DNA from: Phycisphaerae bacterium
GTDB taxonomy: Bacteria > Planctomycetota > Phycisphaerae > Sedimentisphaerales > SM23-30
Direction of reading: 5' to 3'
Length of the DNA: 41,129 nt
Assembly (NCBI GenBank): GCA_016342495.1
Contig: JAEIOG010000040.1
Span: 1-41,129 of the forward strand
The position numbers were made by a program, and so were the translations under genes. Every line of letters starts with the position of its first letter. Position 1 is the first letter of the stretch. This document shows positions 22,263-29,642 of this stretch, one piece after another. The notes under the pieces were generated by a model, which was not told the DNA's origin, did not search any database, and saw nothing but the letters and a program-made list of their open reading frames with translations.

Positions 22263-22763
22263 TTATACACCCATTTCAGCCCTAACCAATACCTTCTCAA
22301 TAAAAGAATTTTTCCTTTGGGTATATCTATGAGTATCGTTGGGAAACTGTCGGGCTAGATCCTGTTTTAACGCCTGATATTGCAGTGCCAAATCATTATC
22401 GGCATTAAGCAAATCTCTAAAGGCGCATTGCCTTTTCACTACTATACCCGCCACCGGACACCAATGCAGATGATGAGTAACCGGCCTATGTTTTACAAAC
22501 CAGTACTGCCCCTGAAAACCCCCGGCACCTTCATGCCGATAATCCAGCCGTCCAAGAATCTCTAATACTTCTTTAGTTGGAGGATAAATCTCACTCTGAA
22601 CCGTTATATCAATAATCGGCTTAGACATTATCCCTTTTATCGATGTACTCCCTACATGATCTATATCGATAATGTAATTCCCTAATTTCTCCATAAGCAG
22701 ACATTTTTCATCTTCAAATTCCTGCTCCCAGGCATGACTCCATTTCACCAGTTTAACTTCCAT
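22263..22763 (-). CDS. GrpB family (UPF0157) protein, nucleotidyltransferase-like fold
   Basis: 166 aa. Family pattern: WSHAWEQEFEDEK, IDHVGSTSIKGIMSKPIIDI, GRLDYRHEG, HLHWCPV, FRDLLNADNDLALQYQALK. GrpB proteins share a nucleotidyltransferase-like core, but their cellular task is not established. GAAGG lies 11 bases before the ATG. It ends back-to-back with lgt. A candidate structured RNA and terminator lie about 100 bases upstream on the same strand. Confidence 0.88.
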   Translation of the reverse strand: MEVKLVKWSHAWEQEFEDEKCLLMEKLGNYIIDIDHVGSTSIKGIMSKPIIDITVQSEIYPPTKEVLEILGRLDYRHEGAGGFQGQYWFVKHRPVTHHLHWCPVAGIVVKRQCAFRDLLNADNDLALQYQALKQDLARQFPNDTHRYTQRKNSFIEKVLVRAEMGV

Positions 22764-22864: not shown

Positions 22865-22899
22865 AAAAAAAAAAAGCTCTCCCTGCGTCCAGGAAGAGC
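22865..22899 (-). terminator. Intrinsic terminator with a competing upstream hairpin
   Basis: 10-bp stem with one G-U pair, a 4-base loop (GACG) and 11 T residues. An alternative hairpin GAGCC-CAGA-GGCTC (22896-22909) would consume the first arm of the terminator. This terminator/antiterminator layout allows attenuation upstream of the GrpB gene. Confidence 0.85.
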
Positions 22900-23055
22900 C
22901 TCTGGGCTCATGGCCCTATAATTATCGAGGTTCAGTGAAGGTAAATTTGTAGGCTTCCGGTCCATACCTTGCTCTGGGCATTGGCGCCAGCACCGCGTTG
23001 GGCATTGACAATAATGGATCAGGAAAGTCTCTTTGTACTGTTTAATACCTCGTAA
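22865..23055 (-). ncRNA. Candidate structured RNA with strong intrinsic terminator (identity unknown)
   Basis: The minus-strand transcript would be closed by a 9-bp stem (23047-23055 with 22922-22931, one bulge), followed inward by CAGU/ACUG and CUU(U)CC/GGAAG pairings, giving a rod with internal loops. It ends in an intrinsic terminator: GCTCTTCCTG-GACG-CAGGGAGAGC (one G-U) and 11 T (22865-22899). The GC-rich middle contains CAATGCCCA twice. The segment AAGCCUACAAAUUUACCUUCA loosely recalls part of 6S RNA, but that identity is weak. It lies between a 68-aa gene and the GrpB gene. Confidence 0.45.
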
Positions 23056-23195
23056 ATTTCAGCTTTAATCGTATAACATTTTACGATCATTAATTACATC
23101 TTAAAGGTAATATATAATAACTGGATATGCAAATATGCGGAGTTTTATTTTTGCTATTTTGGAAAAAACCTGTTTATAGGCTGGAAATGAGATTG

Positions 23196-23402
23196 TTATG
23201 AATAATGCCTGACCGTTGGTTCAAGCTTCTGAAGCATTGCCGCTAAAAGAATATGCCGAAGCTTCCCAGTTGCTAATGTCTCCAGATAATCTTTGGTATA
23301 ATCCAGCTTAAATTGGCCATCAAAATGCAATAGCTCATGCATGACAGCCTCCCGCTCCATTTTTTTAATTTTATCGGATAAAACATGAAATAAATCTGAC
23401 AT
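23196..23402 (-). CDS. Small conserved-looking protein, unknown function
   Basis: 68 aa, charged and probably helical, with motifs EAVMHELLHFDGQF and RHILLAAMLQKLEP. The start is well supported: GAGGA lies about 7 bases before the ATG. No signal peptide, membrane segment or metal motif is seen. I do not recognise a characterised family. It is followed on the same strand by the candidate structured RNA. Confidence 0.6.
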   Translation of the reverse strand: MSDLFHVLSDKIKKMEREAVMHELLHFDGQFKLDYTKDYLETLATGKLRHILLAAMLQKLEPTVRHYS

Positions 23403-23560
23403 AACAATTCCTCTTTTGTGCTAACTCTTGATGCTATCTATACTATCGGAAAAAATCAAGTCATAAAATATCACTTTTCTGACCAGATTAAACAACTTAC
23501 TACACTAAAATATAAAATTTTTCCTTTGTCAAAATGCTCAGGTCTGATAATCTCTTGGCC

Positions 23561-24622
23561 ATGAAAACCAATGAACTAGATTTTTACCTGCCCAATGAAC
23601 TCATAGCACAACAAGGCCTTGACCAGCGTAGCCAGTCCAGACTACTGGTCCTACCACGCCTGGAAGGCCAGATTCAACATAAAAAATTCTTCAATATCAA
23701 ACAATATCTAATGCCAGGAGACTGCCTGGTCCTTAACCAGACAAAGGTTATCCCCGCTAGATTCTATGTTCAAAGAGCTACCGGAGGCAAGATAGAAGGG
23801 CTTTTTCTTGAAATAAATCCCGATGGTCTGTGGAGAACCCTGCTAAAAGGCGCTTCCAGACTCAAAATCGGGGAAACCATCGAAATTATAAATACCTTAG
23901 CTGATCAGCAACCTCCAAAACCTGCCCAGCTAAAAGTCATTGAAAAACTGGATCAGGGCCAATGGCTATTGCAAAATCTATCAGATCAGCCCCATTTGCA
24001 AATTCTCGCCGAAAATGGCGTTACCCCCCTGCCACCCTATATCCATCGCAATTACACCTCTCAGAGTGAAAACCACGACCGTAATCGATACCAGACCATC
24101 TATGCCCAAAGTCCCGGCTCGGTCGCTGCACCTACCGCTGGCCTGCATTTCACCGACGAACTTCTATCTGATCTGCAAGCCAATGACATAAAAATCGCAA
24201 AAGTCACCCTCCACGTTGGCATGGGAACCTTCAAACCCGTCTCCGTTGATAATCTCATAGACCACGAAATCCACAGCGAACAATACGACGTAGACCAGAC
24301 CAATGCCGACATCATCAATAGCACAATAGATTCTGGTGGCCGCATCATCGCCGTTGGCACCACATCTGTCCGCACATTAGAATCCGTCGCAGCCGATGGC
24401 CATATCCAACCCGCCTCTGGCAGCACCAAACTCTTTATTATGCCCGGCTATCAATACAAAGTCGTCGATGGCATCATAACAAATTTCCATCTGCCCAAAT
24501 CAACCCTGTTGGCCTTGATCTGCGCCTTCTCAACCAAAGAACGCGTCATGGACGCCTATAAAATAGCCGTCGGGGAAAAGTACCGTTTCTACAGCTATGG
24601 CGATTCCATGCTGATTATTTAG
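23561..24622 (+). CDS. queA: S-adenosylmethionine:tRNA ribosyltransferase-isomerase
   Basis: Queuosine pathway enzyme that transfers and isomerises the ribosyl group of SAM onto preQ1 in tRNA. 353 aa. Motifs are ELDFYLPNELIAQ at the start, LVLNQTKVIPARF, LPPYIHR, RYQTIYAQSPGSVAAPTAGL, HVGMGTFKPV and FITNFHLPKSTLLALICAF-like residues near the end. Start ATG 23561 is chosen because relatives begin here; an ATG at 23534 adds nine residues, and neither has a good Shine-Dalgarno sequence. The last 8 bases overlap the converging DUF2007 gene. No other queuosine gene is in the window. Confidence 0.96.
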   Translation: MKTNELDFYLPNELIAQQGLDQRSQSRLLVLPRLEGQIQHKKFFNIKQYLMPGDCLVLNQTKVIPARFYVQRATGGKIEGLFLEINPDGLWRTLLKGASRLKIGETIEIINTLADQQPPKPAQLKVIEKLDQGQWLLQNLSDQPHLQILAENGVTPLPPYIHRNYTSQSENHDRNRYQTIYAQSPGSVAAPTAGLHFTDELLSDLQANDIKIAKVTLHVGMGTFKPVSVDNLIDHEIHSEQYDVDQTNADIINSTIDSGGRIIAVGTTSVRTLESVAADGHIQPASGSTKLFIMPGYQYKVVDGIITNFHLPKSTLLALICAFSTKERVMDAYKIAVGEKYRFYSYGDSMLII

Positions 24623-25095: not shown

Positions 25096-27159
25096 CTATT
25101 TTCCTTCCAGCCAATGACCTGCCAAATTAATCAAATCACCCATATCATAACCATCGCTATCCAGCCACCCAATAGCCAACTCGGCCAAATCCTCCAGATC
25201 AACTCCATCTCCCCCAGCCATATCACCAGCAATATCAACCTGATACCACAACCGCGGATAACTCACCTTACCCGAATGCATCCGCCAAATATCTTCTTCC
25301 CCATTTTCAGTCTCACCAACGAAATCCCAACCAACCCCAATTAATACCGCCGAATCCTGCAGCTGCCCAGTCCCAACACCAATACCACCCGCTGAAACCG
25401 ATAAACCACTAGTCTCAACATCCCAACCCGAACCCATAACACCGCCGTTATTAGAACCCACCAGTCCCCCAACTTTTTCAGTGCCAATGACAGTGCCGAT
25501 AGAATAGCAATTGTATATCCCCGCTTCGTTTAATCCTACCAGTCCTCCTGCCGTATGAGTAACTGCTGATACCGAGCTGAAGGCATAGCTATCATATATA
25601 CTGCCACCATTATTGCCACCAACTAAACCACCTATACCCCAGTTGCCTGCTACTTGGCCAGTTGCATAGCAATTACTAATGCTGCCAGCATTAAAAGCTG
25701 CAACAGCGCCAACACCAGCTTTGCCAGTTATATTTGCATTAACAATACCAAGATTTCTAACTACGTAAGGCCAGCCATGGACACAGCCGAATAAACCCAC
25801 ATAATTGGTGTCTGGCCGATTAATTGTAAGCCCTTTTATTGTATGTCCCCAACCCTCAAAACTACCGGTAAACATATTGATATAATCGCCAATAGGCTTA
25901 AAACCTTCCAGAATAGTATCATCAGTCCCTTCATCATTCCAATAGGCAGTCTCTCTGGCATCAATATCACACATAAGGGCATAGGTGCCATCTAAAGGGT
26001 ATGAAGGGTCATTACCAATTTTAGCCAGTGTAGCCAGAGTATCGATCCCAATAGCTGGGGCAAATTTTGCAACAAACTCACTACTCGTCCCTACATAAAC
26101 AAAAGTCTGAGGATTTTCCTTAAAATCATGCCATTCGATAAATACACAAGGGACATCTCCTGATATCGCCCTTAAACTAATAAGGGTTCCGGGAGCATAG
26201 CGGCCATTATCAGATTCAGGAGAGATGATCACCTGACCTGGCCCATCAACTGTTACTGTTAGTTTATAAGTTGGCACCATATCCTTAATGTATGGATAAC
26301 TCCTGTTTTCCAGAATTTCCCAGGTATTTTCAAAATCCCAGTTTGGATAATTAGTCTGCTGTAGCATTTGCCCAATATATCTACCTGCACCACCAGCAGA
26401 ATTATTTTTACCACTCAAATAAACATCCCAGTAACAATCAATTACTGTTGCCGAAGAAGATTGGCTGCCGATAAATCCACCACCATTGCCTATGACCTTT
26501 GTTGTGGAATAACTCGTTGCAATAGAAGCATTATTTATTCCAACAAATCCTGCTGCACCATAGTTTGTTGCTTTGGCTGTTCCGGTAGCAAAAGTATTGC
26601 TGATAAACCCATAATTTTCCCCTACCAAACCGGCAGGATAAATTGCCGCACCCACAAAACCATCTGCATAACAATGACTAACAACTCCACCGTTAATTCC
26701 AACGACACTACCAGCACAATAATTTCCTGTTATGGCTGTATCAACCAGCCCCAGATTTTTAACTATGCCATCGGTGCCAATACAGCTAAACAAACCGACA
26801 TAATCTCTATCAGGACGATGAATATTAAGACCGGTTATAATATGATTCTGCCCATCGAAAATCCCATTAAAAGGGTTAATGGCACTTTCGGTATATACGC
26901 CAATAGGTTCAAACCCTTCCAATATTTCTTCATCGCTTTCTTCATCGTTCCAGTTCGCGGTTTGCCAAGCATCAATATTAGCAGTAAGGATATAATGTTC
27001 ATCCAGCGGATAATTCGGGTCATTGCCGATTTTAGCCAGTGACTCTAATGAATCAATCTCAATAGTAATCCAGAAATCAGCTAAAATTGTCTTGTCACTA
27101 TCCATTATTACTGTAGCGACAAGGCCATCGGCCAAATGAACACCCTGCCAACCTTTCAT
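25096..27159 (-). CDS. GLUG-repeat protein, C-terminal part of a gene split by duplication
   Basis: 687-codon frame that is the 3' part of one large gene. It begins inside the duplicated segment (MKGWQGVHLADG) without a signal peptide. It carries two GLUG clusters (NPFNGIFDGQNHIITGL, then GSFEGWGHTIKGLTI), with many GGLVG/CYATG-type repeats and a divergent InlB B-repeat-like domain between them (YKLTVTVDGPGQVIISPES ... FVAKF). It ends in a dockerin-like tail (GGDGVDLEDLAELAIGWLDS, then MGDLINLAGHWLEG), typical of Phycisphaerae exported proteins. The true gene is restored by deleting one 458-bp copy. As it stands this part is probably not exported, and its internal Met has only a weak ribosome binding site. 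Confidence 0.75.
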   Translation of the reverse strand: MKGWQGVHLADGLVATVIMDSDKTILADFWITIEIDSLESLAKIGNDPNYPLDEHYILTANIDAWQTANWNDEESDEEILEGFEPIGVYTESAINPFNGIFDGQNHIITGLNIHRPDRDYVGLFSCIGTDGIVKNLGLVDTAITGNYCAGSVVGINGGVVSHCYADGFVGAAIYPAGLVGENYGFISNTFATGTAKATNYGAAGFVGINNASIATSYSTTKVIGNGGGFIGSQSSSATVIDCYWDVYLSGKNNSAGGAGRYIGQMLQQTNYPNWDFENTWEILENRSYPYIKDMVPTYKLTVTVDGPGQVIISPESDNGRYAPGTLISLRAISGDVPCVFIEWHDFKENPQTFVYVGTSSEFVAKFAPAIGIDTLATLAKIGNDPSYPLDGTYALMCDIDARETAYWNDEGTDDTILEGFKPIGDYINMFTGSFEGWGHTIKGLTINRPDTNYVGLFGCVHGWPYVVRNLGIVNANITGKAGVGAVAAFNAGSISNCYATGQVAGNWGIGGLVGGNNGGSIYDSYAFSSVSAVTHTAGGLVGLNEAGIYNCYSIGTVIGTEKVGGLVGSNNGGVMGSGWDVETSGLSVSAGGIGVGTGQLQDSAVLIGVGWDFVGETENGEEDIWRMHSGKVSYPRLWYQVDIAGDMAGGDGVDLEDLAELAIGWLDSDGYDMGDLINLAGHWLEGK

Positions 27160-27362
27160 ACCAAAAGTTCCAGTGTCATCAGCGGTTAAAGTAATAACTG
27201 TTCCAGGAACATAACAGCCATTAACCGGTGCGGGTTCAAATAAAACCGACCCTGAGCCTTTGACCTCAATATCCAGCTTAAATTTGGGCTGCGAAGCTAT
27301 GAAATATGGATAGCTAAATCCATCATTGATAGCCCAGATATTTTCAAAGTCCCAGTCAGCAT
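26903..27362. repeat. 458-bp perfect tandem duplication, copy 1
   Basis: Bases 26903-27362 match 27361-27820 at every position compared. The repeat period is 458 bp, and the copies share the two bases AT at the junction (27361-27362), a 2-bp microhomology. Just outside, the sequences differ at once (C against A at one end, A against C at the other). Confidence 0.95.
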
Positions 27363-29642
27363 AGGTTCAAACCCTTCCAATATTTCTTCATCGCTTTCTT
27401 CATCGTTCCAGTTCGCGGTTTGCCAAGCATCAATATTAGCAGTAAGGATATAATGTTCATCCAGCGGATAATTCGGGTCATTGCCGATTTTAGCCAGTGA
27501 CTCTAATGAATCAATCTCAATAGTAATCCAGAAATCAGCTAAAATTGTCTTGTCACTATCCATTATTACTGTAGCGACAAGGCCATCGGCCAAATGAACA
27601 CCCTGCCAACCTTTCATACCAAAAGTTCCAGTGTCATCAGCGGTTAAAGTAATAACTGTTCCAGGAACATAACAGCCATTAACCGGTGCGGGTTCAAATA
27701 AAACCGACCCTGAGCCTTTGACCTCAATATCCAGCTTAAATTTGGGCTGCGAAGCTATGAAATATGGATAGCTAAATCCATCATTGATAGCCCAGATATT
27801 TTCAAAGTCCCAGTCAGCATCGGTAAATGTTGCCTTCTGATGCATCTGTTCAGTGGTTTTGTCGATACCTCCATCAGAATCATCACATTGACTGGTTTGA
27901 CTGTCCCAAAATCCGGCTGCTGATTGGGAACTACTGTTTGTTGCGATTAGACCACCAGCATAATTTTCCGCAATAATTCTTGCTGTGCTATAGTTGTGTT
28001 CTATGATGGCACAATAATTGATAGAACCCAACAGCCCACCCACAACATAAGTACCTGTTATTTTGCCTGTAACAAAACAATTATTCACTCTATTAACCGT
28101 ATCAATATTGCAGGTAGATTCGTAAATATATCCGACCATACCAGCTACAATATTGCCACCCGTAATATTGGCATTTATCAGGCCCAGCTTTTTGACTTCA
28201 GCACCGTTGCCAATACTACCAAACAAAGCGACACAATTGTCTTGTGGGGCATTGATGGTCAAATTATGAATAATATGGCCATCGCCATCGAAAGAACCAG
28301 TAAATTTTTCACCTTCAAATTCATAATCTTCATAAAAACCCGGTGCAATCAATGCCTTGTCAAAATCATAATCGCCCATATCTATATCAGAAGTCATAAT
28401 AAAGCACTTATCATAATCTTTAACACTATAGCCCAAATCAATCATATCTCTGGCTGTAGATATTTGATAAGGATCTGCAGAGCTACCAACACCGCCCGAA
28501 TAAGTAATATTACGCAATTGCGGATAATCGCCATCTGGCAGGAGCCATATATTTTTTATACCATTATCCGTCTCGCCAACAAAATCCCAACCCGCATCAG
28601 TAAAGGTTGAAAGAGTTTGCATCTCGGCGGTGGTTTTGCCATAGCTAATACTCCCTGCGATATTACCCACACCCTGAGCAACACCACCAGTTTGAATGTC
28701 CCAAAAACAAGCAGTAAGTGTTGGGTTATCACCATAAGGAAAAGAACTAAGGGCACCAACCATGCCCCCAACAGAATTATCACCACTAATATCACCGGTT
28801 GTATAACATTTTTCGAAATGCCCGCCATTGACACCAGCCAAACCGCCAACATGCTGACTACCATTAACAGATGCTTTCGCATAACAGTTTCTTATAGTAG
28901 AATACAAATTTCTACCAACTATTCCGCCTGCAAAAGATTCTTGAGCATTAACAACGCCATTAGTAAAACTGCTGACAATATAACTCCTATTATCTCCTAC
29001 CAGCCCGCCAACATAATTAATCCCGCTTACATTAACATCGGCACGACAAGTATTAATAGTGGCAATTGTGCCTGGGCCTTCAGAAATATAGGTAAGAGCA
29101 AAACTGCTGCCAGCCAAACCTCCGACATAAGTATCTCCCTCAATATGGCCAGAAACAGAGATAGATTCTATTTGGCTGTAGTACAAAATACCAACTAACC
29201 CGCCAGTTTCCTTACTGCCGTGTATATCGACATTTTTCAAATTTAAATGACTCACCTGTGCTTCATAAAGCATACCAAATAATCCTACACAATCATTGCC
29301 AGAGCCATCAATGGTTAAGTTGCTAATTGTATGATTATTGCCATTAAAACTTCCAGTAAATTTTGACCCTTGCAACCCAGATTCCGTCGAATCATCCGGT
29401 GCGATAACCGCTTGTGTGAATTCATAACACGCCAGATCAATATCCGCTGTCATTATGAAACAGCTATTATAATCTTCAGTGGTGTTTCCCAATCTTATCA
29501 AATCTTCTGCGGTAGCTATCTGGTAAGGGTCTGCCTCGGTGCCTGTGCCGCCGGAATATTGTCCCAGACAGGTAGCTCCTGATATAATAAAAATTGTCCA
29601 GATTAATAATATAAACTTGATACACTTGTTGAAGAACTTCAT
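27297..29642 (-). CDS. GLUG-repeat protein, N-terminal part of a gene split by duplication
   Basis: 781-codon frame with a signal peptide (CIKFILLIWTIFIISGATC). Two blocks begin GGTGTEADPYQIATAEDL and GGVGSSADPYQISTARDM, each followed by GLUG modules (GSFNGNNHTISNLTI, YVGGLAG, GGLVGDN, CYAKASV). Near the end is a divergent InlB B-repeat-like domain (FKLDIEVKGSGSVLFEPAP ... KTILADF). GLUG repeats form beta-solenoid-like surface or secreted domains; adhesion or polysaccharide contact is plausible but unproven. The last 20 or so residues (after ILEGFEP) are out-of-frame sequence created by the duplication. Deleting one copy joins this frame to the C-terminal part: 4547 minus 458 is 4089 bp, 1362 codons plus stop. 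Confidence 0.8.
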   Translation of the reverse strand: MKFFNKCIKFILLIWTIFIISGATCLGQYSGGTGTEADPYQIATAEDLIRLGNTTEDYNSCFIMTADIDLACYEFTQAVIAPDDSTESGLQGSKFTGSFNGNNHTISNLTIDGSGNDCVGLFGMLYEAQVSHLNLKNVDIHGSKETGGLVGILYYSQIESISVSGHIEGDTYVGGLAGSSFALTYISEGPGTIATINTCRADVNVSGINYVGGLVGDNRSYIVSSFTNGVVNAQESFAGGIVGRNLYSTIRNCYAKASVNGSQHVGGLAGVNGGHFEKCYTTGDISGDNSVGGMVGALSSFPYGDNPTLTACFWDIQTGGVAQGVGNIAGSISYGKTTAEMQTLSTFTDAGWDFVGETDNGIKNIWLLPDGDYPQLRNITYSGGVGSSADPYQISTARDMIDLGYSVKDYDKCFIMTSDIDMGDYDFDKALIAPGFYEDYEFEGEKFTGSFDGDGHIIHNLTINAPQDNCVALFGSIGNGAEVKKLGLINANITGGNIVAGMVGYIYESTCNIDTVNRVNNCFVTGKITGTYVVGGLLGSINYCAIIEHNYSTARIIAENYAGGLIATNSSSQSAAGFWDSQTSQCDDSDGGIDKTTEQMHQKATFTDADWDFENIWAINDGFSYPYFIASQPKFKLDIEVKGSGSVLFEPAPVNGCYVPGTVITLTADDTGTFGMKGWQGVHLADGLVATVIMDSDKTILADFWITIEIDSLESLAKIGNDPNYPLDEHYILTANIDAWQTANWNDEESDEEILEGFEPMLTGTLKISGLSMMDLAIHIS
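27361..27820. repeat. 458-bp perfect tandem duplication, copy 2
   Basis: Second copy, directly adjacent and in the same orientation. Since 458 is 3 x 152 + 2, the duplication shifts the reading frame of the GLUG gene and creates an early stop (27297-27299) for the N-terminal part. Confidence 0.95.

Follow-up and report, generated by a model that had tools for sequence, protein, structure and literature searches.

A candidate gene for a folded small RNA common to one family of Planctomycetes

The locus and its transcription signals

The window, i.e., the whole stretch of 41,129 nucleotides that was analysed (contig JAEIOG010000040.1 of a Phycisphaerae bacterium), was found to possess a candidate gene for a small RNA, here called RNA-A, which occupies approximately 230 nt of the minus strand from a promoter pattern to a terminator (22865..23097). 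Upstream on the same strand lies a gene for a protein of 68 aa (23196..23402), which neighbours queA (23534–24622, plus strand). The conserved body of RNA-A, as spanned by the covariance model described below (22922..23055, minus strand), starts 141 nt downstream of this 68-aa gene. The gene downstream, which lies outside the RNA unit, belongs to the GrpB family (22263..22763, minus strand; PF04229, E 7.5e-38). The 68-aa protein was without a family in Pfam and NCBIfam searches. It is conserved as a protein of 65–70 aa with the motif FxGxFKLDF...LRHILLAA; of the 59 relatives searched, 49 gave a match at E ≤ 1 (two of these matches being weak), and by eye its gene adjoins queA in many relatives. 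The viral contigs scanned with the protein yielded no relative.

RNA-A ends in an intrinsic terminator (22865..22903, minus strand) with a 14-pair stem (22903–22872) and a run of 11 T (22875–22865), as an initial annotation of this spacer had described. The 851-base stretch searched contained more terminator-like sites than chance would give (three vs. 0.5 expected); two of these overlap, both representing this same hairpin. Just 5' of the terminator lies a hairpin of the form GGGC...GCCC (P5, 22904..22916, minus strand), predicted with pair probabilities of 0.99–1.0, and GC hairpins resembling it were seen by eye in several homologues. A hairpin proposed to compete with the terminator (GAGCC/GGCTC, 22909–22905/22900–22896, minus strand) exists on paper but is predicted never to be populated, with −7.8 kcal/mol vs. 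−28.4 kcal/mol for the terminator fold and an ensemble pair probability of 0.

The promoter pattern has the form TTGC-N19-TA...T and in the window comprises a −35-like box TTGCAT (23127..23132) and a −10-like box TACCTT (23104..23109), both on the minus strand and separated by a spacer of 17 bp. The box spacing would place the start of RNA-A near 23097. An RNA of ~190 nt had been proposed earlier; its end at 22865 coincides with the terminator, but the transcript is probably longer, given where the promoter pattern puts its start. The pattern was present within 200 bases upstream of RNA-A in all 11 copies identified vs. 0.26 expected from shuffles, a comparison made with a pattern chosen post hoc, after the sequences had been inspected. 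Its distance upstream is 196 bases in genome G004 and 121 in G005. Most copies have a hairpin with a T-rich tail 3' of RNA-A. With a simple terminator script none passed in G001 and G004 (in the latter a hairpin is visible, with few T), and G008 and G012 gave doubtful ones.

Homologues and conserved structure

A DNA similarity search of 98 genomes with the window stretch returned no match except the window itself, because the homologues are about half identical, and the conserved neighbouring 68-aa gene was used as the anchor instead. The GrpB gene, which was found in eight of the 59 relatives, failed as an anchor. In the family to which the window belongs (f1, 13 genomes in the set), eight genomes were found to carry a syntenic RNA-A downstream of the 68-aa gene, namely the window's own (G000), G001, G002, G005, G007, G008, G009, and G012. 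Pairwise identity among these eight copies averages 51% (range 43–82%), with the window copy being 45–56% identical to the other seven.

A covariance model (R1) was built from a sequence-only alignment of the eight syntenic copies (A2). When it was applied to 161 genomes of the order, under the stricter filters used for scans of more than 40 genomes, matches at E ≤ 1 were obtained in 11 genomes, all from the family (11 of its 13 genomes, in ten genera), and in none of the 148 genomes of other families. The window copy matched with 92.3 bits, its own sequence having been in the model. Three of the copies retrieved lay outside the training set (G010, E 1.6e-5; G004, E 6.4e-5; G011, E 0.04), and their surroundings differ. 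A model rebuilt with all 11 copies (R2) and run with laxer filters returned the same 11 genomes. Neither R1 nor this laxer R2 scan gave a match in G003 (72% complete) or in G006 (99% complete), which has the 68-aa gene without RNA-A. Elsewhere R2 produced seven rows at E 1.3–4.2, taken as chance, and among 397 genomes of the class it recovered six members of the family, plus a partial match in G360 (E 0.037) that was likewise treated as chance. A scan of public genome contigs provided 93 loci, of which 80 were kept. A simple pattern search found RNA-A in only five of these (L071, L073, L079, L082, and L102), each a public record of a family member included in the counts above; three other rows (L111, L121, and L139) were unconvincing.

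RNA-A is predicted to fold into a closing stem (P1, 23047..23052 with 22926..22931), a bubble of conserved size (23031..23046 on the 5' side and 22932..22950 on the 3' side), a second, covarying stem (P2, 23025..23030 with 22951..22956), and a branched apical arm, in which hairpin P4 lies on the 3' side (22966..22985; all minus strand) and the variable arm P3 was placed by eye only. Across the 11 sequences P1 is nearly invariant, with 98.5% of cells paired and one pair changed on both sides, and in the window it is part of a stem reading ACGAGGT/ACCTCG (about 23053–23047/22931–22926, minus strand). The strongest covariation was observed in P2 (87.9% of cells paired, four of six pairs changed on both sides) and P4 (81.2% and four of seven, respectively). 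The sides of the bubble measure 15–25 nt (5') and 15–19 nt (3'); its size is kept while its sequence varies widely between genera, and only the start of the 3' side, which is mostly A-rich, recurs.

In alignment A2, 89.1% of 175 cells pair, compared with at most 51.1% when the partners are slid by one column, and nine pairs were changed on both sides vs. 4.0 in shuffles (none of 500 as high). The alignment of 11 sequences gave 88.4% paired and 11 such pairs vs. 4.6 (again none of 500). Such counts are biased in favour of the structure, as it was set partly on the alignment from which they were taken. The three copies which were not used to set the structure (G004, G010, and G011) have 50 of 58 cells paired, though their alignment had been fitted to the model. 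By eye, the longest ORFs in the 11 copies showed no common reading frame.

The window copy by itself is less telling. Its 191-nt stretch (23055–22865) folds with z −1.91 (seven of 200 shuffles were as good) and a longer stretch with z −2.43, whereas the 134-nt body without terminator reaches z −0.14, no better than shuffled sequence. The advantage of the 191-nt fold is thus due to the terminator, and the case for RNA-A therefore rests on comparison. Over the 11 bodies z ranges from −0.14 to −5.88 (mean −2.24), and four copies besides that of the window are weaker than −1.5. The closed rod drawn from the window at the outset is not evident from the window alone; comparison recovered a closed structure with a branched apical arm. 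The conservation, covariation and terminator of RNA-A are established by this comparison of sequences. The locus very probably encodes a folded small RNA, has start and stop signals of its own, and is common to one family of little-studied Planctomycetes.

Comparison with known RNAs and possible mode of action

The window had no match to Rfam at gathering scores, and ARAGORN found neither tRNA nor tmRNA within it. SRP RNA and RNase P RNA were rejected as identities, with no model match at the locus and both RNAs found at other sites in the same genome, as is an ordinary 6S RNA. The exclusion of SRP RNA and RNase P RNA in the initial annotation is thereby supported, and that of tmRNA agrees with the ARAGORN result for the window. 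With permissive settings the 11 short RNA-A loci gave five Rfam rows, in which no family occurred twice and 6S did not appear. The best single score for the window was that of BcKCsr2 (RF02883), at 22.5 bits vs. a gathering score of 40 (E 0.0047 and 0.043 in two scans); the likeness lies in the terminator and a few letters of the window copy only, and none of the ten homologues matches. This and the other near-matches (among them ctRNA_p42d and PyrR) were taken as chance since they score below gathering and are not common to the homologues. Readings as sigma-54, T-arm, or Y-RNA-like elements were considered by eye and dropped. Nothing in Rfam fits RNA-A, and no paper describing it was found in searches of open-access articles, supplements apart. 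The proposal of a new structured RNA is supported by the occurrence in 11 of 13 family genomes, the covarying helices, the common promoter pattern, and the lack of a common Rfam family; that RNA-A is new with respect to the described families searched is supported by these sequence searches.

B. subtilis has 6S-2 RNA beside 6S-1. RNA-A might similarly be a second, highly diverged 6S-type RNA, the bubble of which would bind RNA polymerase. In the general description of 6S RNAs in PMC8876501, size, closing stem, and central bubble are characteristic and sequence identity is low. RNA-A resembles them in measuring ~200 nt, in having a closing stem and, between two arms, a central bubble that keeps its size, in its own promoter and terminator, and in the single copy found per genome. 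However, the 6S model (RF00013) gave no row for any of the 11 copies up to E 10, whereas canonical 6S RNAs were found above the cut-off in 12 of the 13 family genomes (47–65 bits) and separately from RNA-A in ten of the 11 genomes which have it, with none found in G012 (62% complete). In addition, the apical arm of RNA-A is branched (P4), unlike the unbranched, interrupted arm of 6S. Canonical 6S was rejected as the identity of RNA-A on the basis of the missing model match and its presence elsewhere in the genome, so that of the slight resemblance noted at first the shape remains, and even a second 6S-type RNA appears distinctly unlikely.

The genes downstream of RNA-A vary among the 11 copies. 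The most frequent is waaA (Kdo transferase), identified by Pfam in G001, G002, G011, and G012 and by motif in G010, at distances of about 300–940 nt; it is the next recognised gene after RNA-A at loci L153, L154, L155, L163, and L190 (five of the 11 genomes), and the order RNA-A to waaA is perhaps an older one. An FkbM methyltransferase follows in G005 and HlyIII in G004; a histidine kinase (G007) and a DEAD helicase (G008) lie on the opposite strand, and G009 showed no recognisable long gene downstream. GrpB was seen downstream in the window only and in none of the other ten genomes. This diversity bears on the initial annotation's reading of the spacer as an attenuator of the GrpB gene. Regulation of the following gene in cis, by attenuation or as a riboswitch, would agree with a terminator upstream of GrpB and with the recurrence of waaA, but the downstream genes differ and in part lie on the opposite strand, the distances to waaA are long, and the alternative hairpin has probability 0, leaving no predicted mutually exclusive terminator and antiterminator. 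Most homologues end in their own terminator before varied genes, and this reading is regarded as the least probable of those weighed. A reading of RNA-A as no more than the 3' UTR of the 68-aa gene, terminator included, is scarcely more probable. The two do share a strand, at a distance of 141 nt in the window, but a promoter pattern lies between them, RNA-A was not seen beside the 68-aa gene in G004, G010, and G011 (in G010 it is at a contig end), and G006 has the gene alone.

The features looked for in a stand-alone small RNA, namely a promoter pattern (chosen post hoc), a terminator and conservation across genera, were found, with the terminator not found in every copy. Like other bacterial RNAs of this kind, RNA-A occupies an intergenic position with promoter-like boxes, an intrinsic terminator and no shared open frame seen; it differs from them in being conserved by pairing with no visible seed, and in having no Rfam family common to its homologues. 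The main rival is a base-pairing regulatory RNA, in which the single-stranded bubble or leader would pair with mRNAs and the fold would provide stability. A stand-alone gene with terminator and unpaired bubble sides of 15–25 nt would suit such an RNA, but no invariant unpaired seed is apparent, the bubble differs widely between genera, and it is the pairing which is conserved; we regard this alternative as unlikely, though less so than a second 6S. As pairing and bubble size are conserved while the sequence is free, RNA-A would be a folded RNA recognised by its shape, and a protein partner is hence the first choice. It is somewhat more probable than not, in our estimation, that RNA-A is a stand-alone RNA of ~230 nt with its own promoter and terminator, held by a protein and acting in trans through its folded body. 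Transcription of the minus strand would proceed from a sigma-70-like promoter, with a start near 23097, to the intrinsic terminator at 22865, and the folded body, perhaps protein-bound, would act in trans instead of serving as a leader for the gene that follows.

Small RNAs on record are few for Planctomycetes, a phylum with unusual cell biology, and their allies; a table in PMC9029176 has eight in all for the PVC group. With its model, promoter pattern and boundaries, RNA-A can be targeted concretely in expression and pull-down experiments, and it adds to the RNAs that may be 6S-shaped.

RNA-B and a repeated stretch in the window

In other families the same spacer was observed to contain an unlisted small RNA candidate of ~125 nt (RNA-B), which follows the 68-aa gene but is encoded by the opposite strand. 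It has promoter-like boxes, a U/C-rich CTCTTTTTCTTCTTAT-like leader, a stem which by eye varies in step, and a terminator. A crude pattern detected it in 16 of 109 spacers (14 distinct), for example at L031:230-352 and L049:1055-1178 (plus strand), and no Rfam match at gathering scores was obtained for it in the loci scanned. An alignment of all 14 mis-set the stem, and model R3 was therefore built from seven of them. R3 had matches in 62 of the 159 order genomes scanned and in none of the 13 genomes of the window's family. It is conceivable, if on the doubtful side, that RNA-A represents a new structured RNA family confined to one planctomycete family, serving as the core of a ribonucleoprotein or, next to 6S, as a second RNA that binds the polymerase, and occupying the locus at which other families have RNA-B.

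Elsewhere in the window, two neighbouring long ORFs for repeat proteins (25096–27159 and 27297–29642) share an identical stretch of ~85 residues (~26900–27160 and 27300–27600, minus strand), with which one ORF starts and which the other has close to its end. Either the duplication is recent or the assembly is at fault here.
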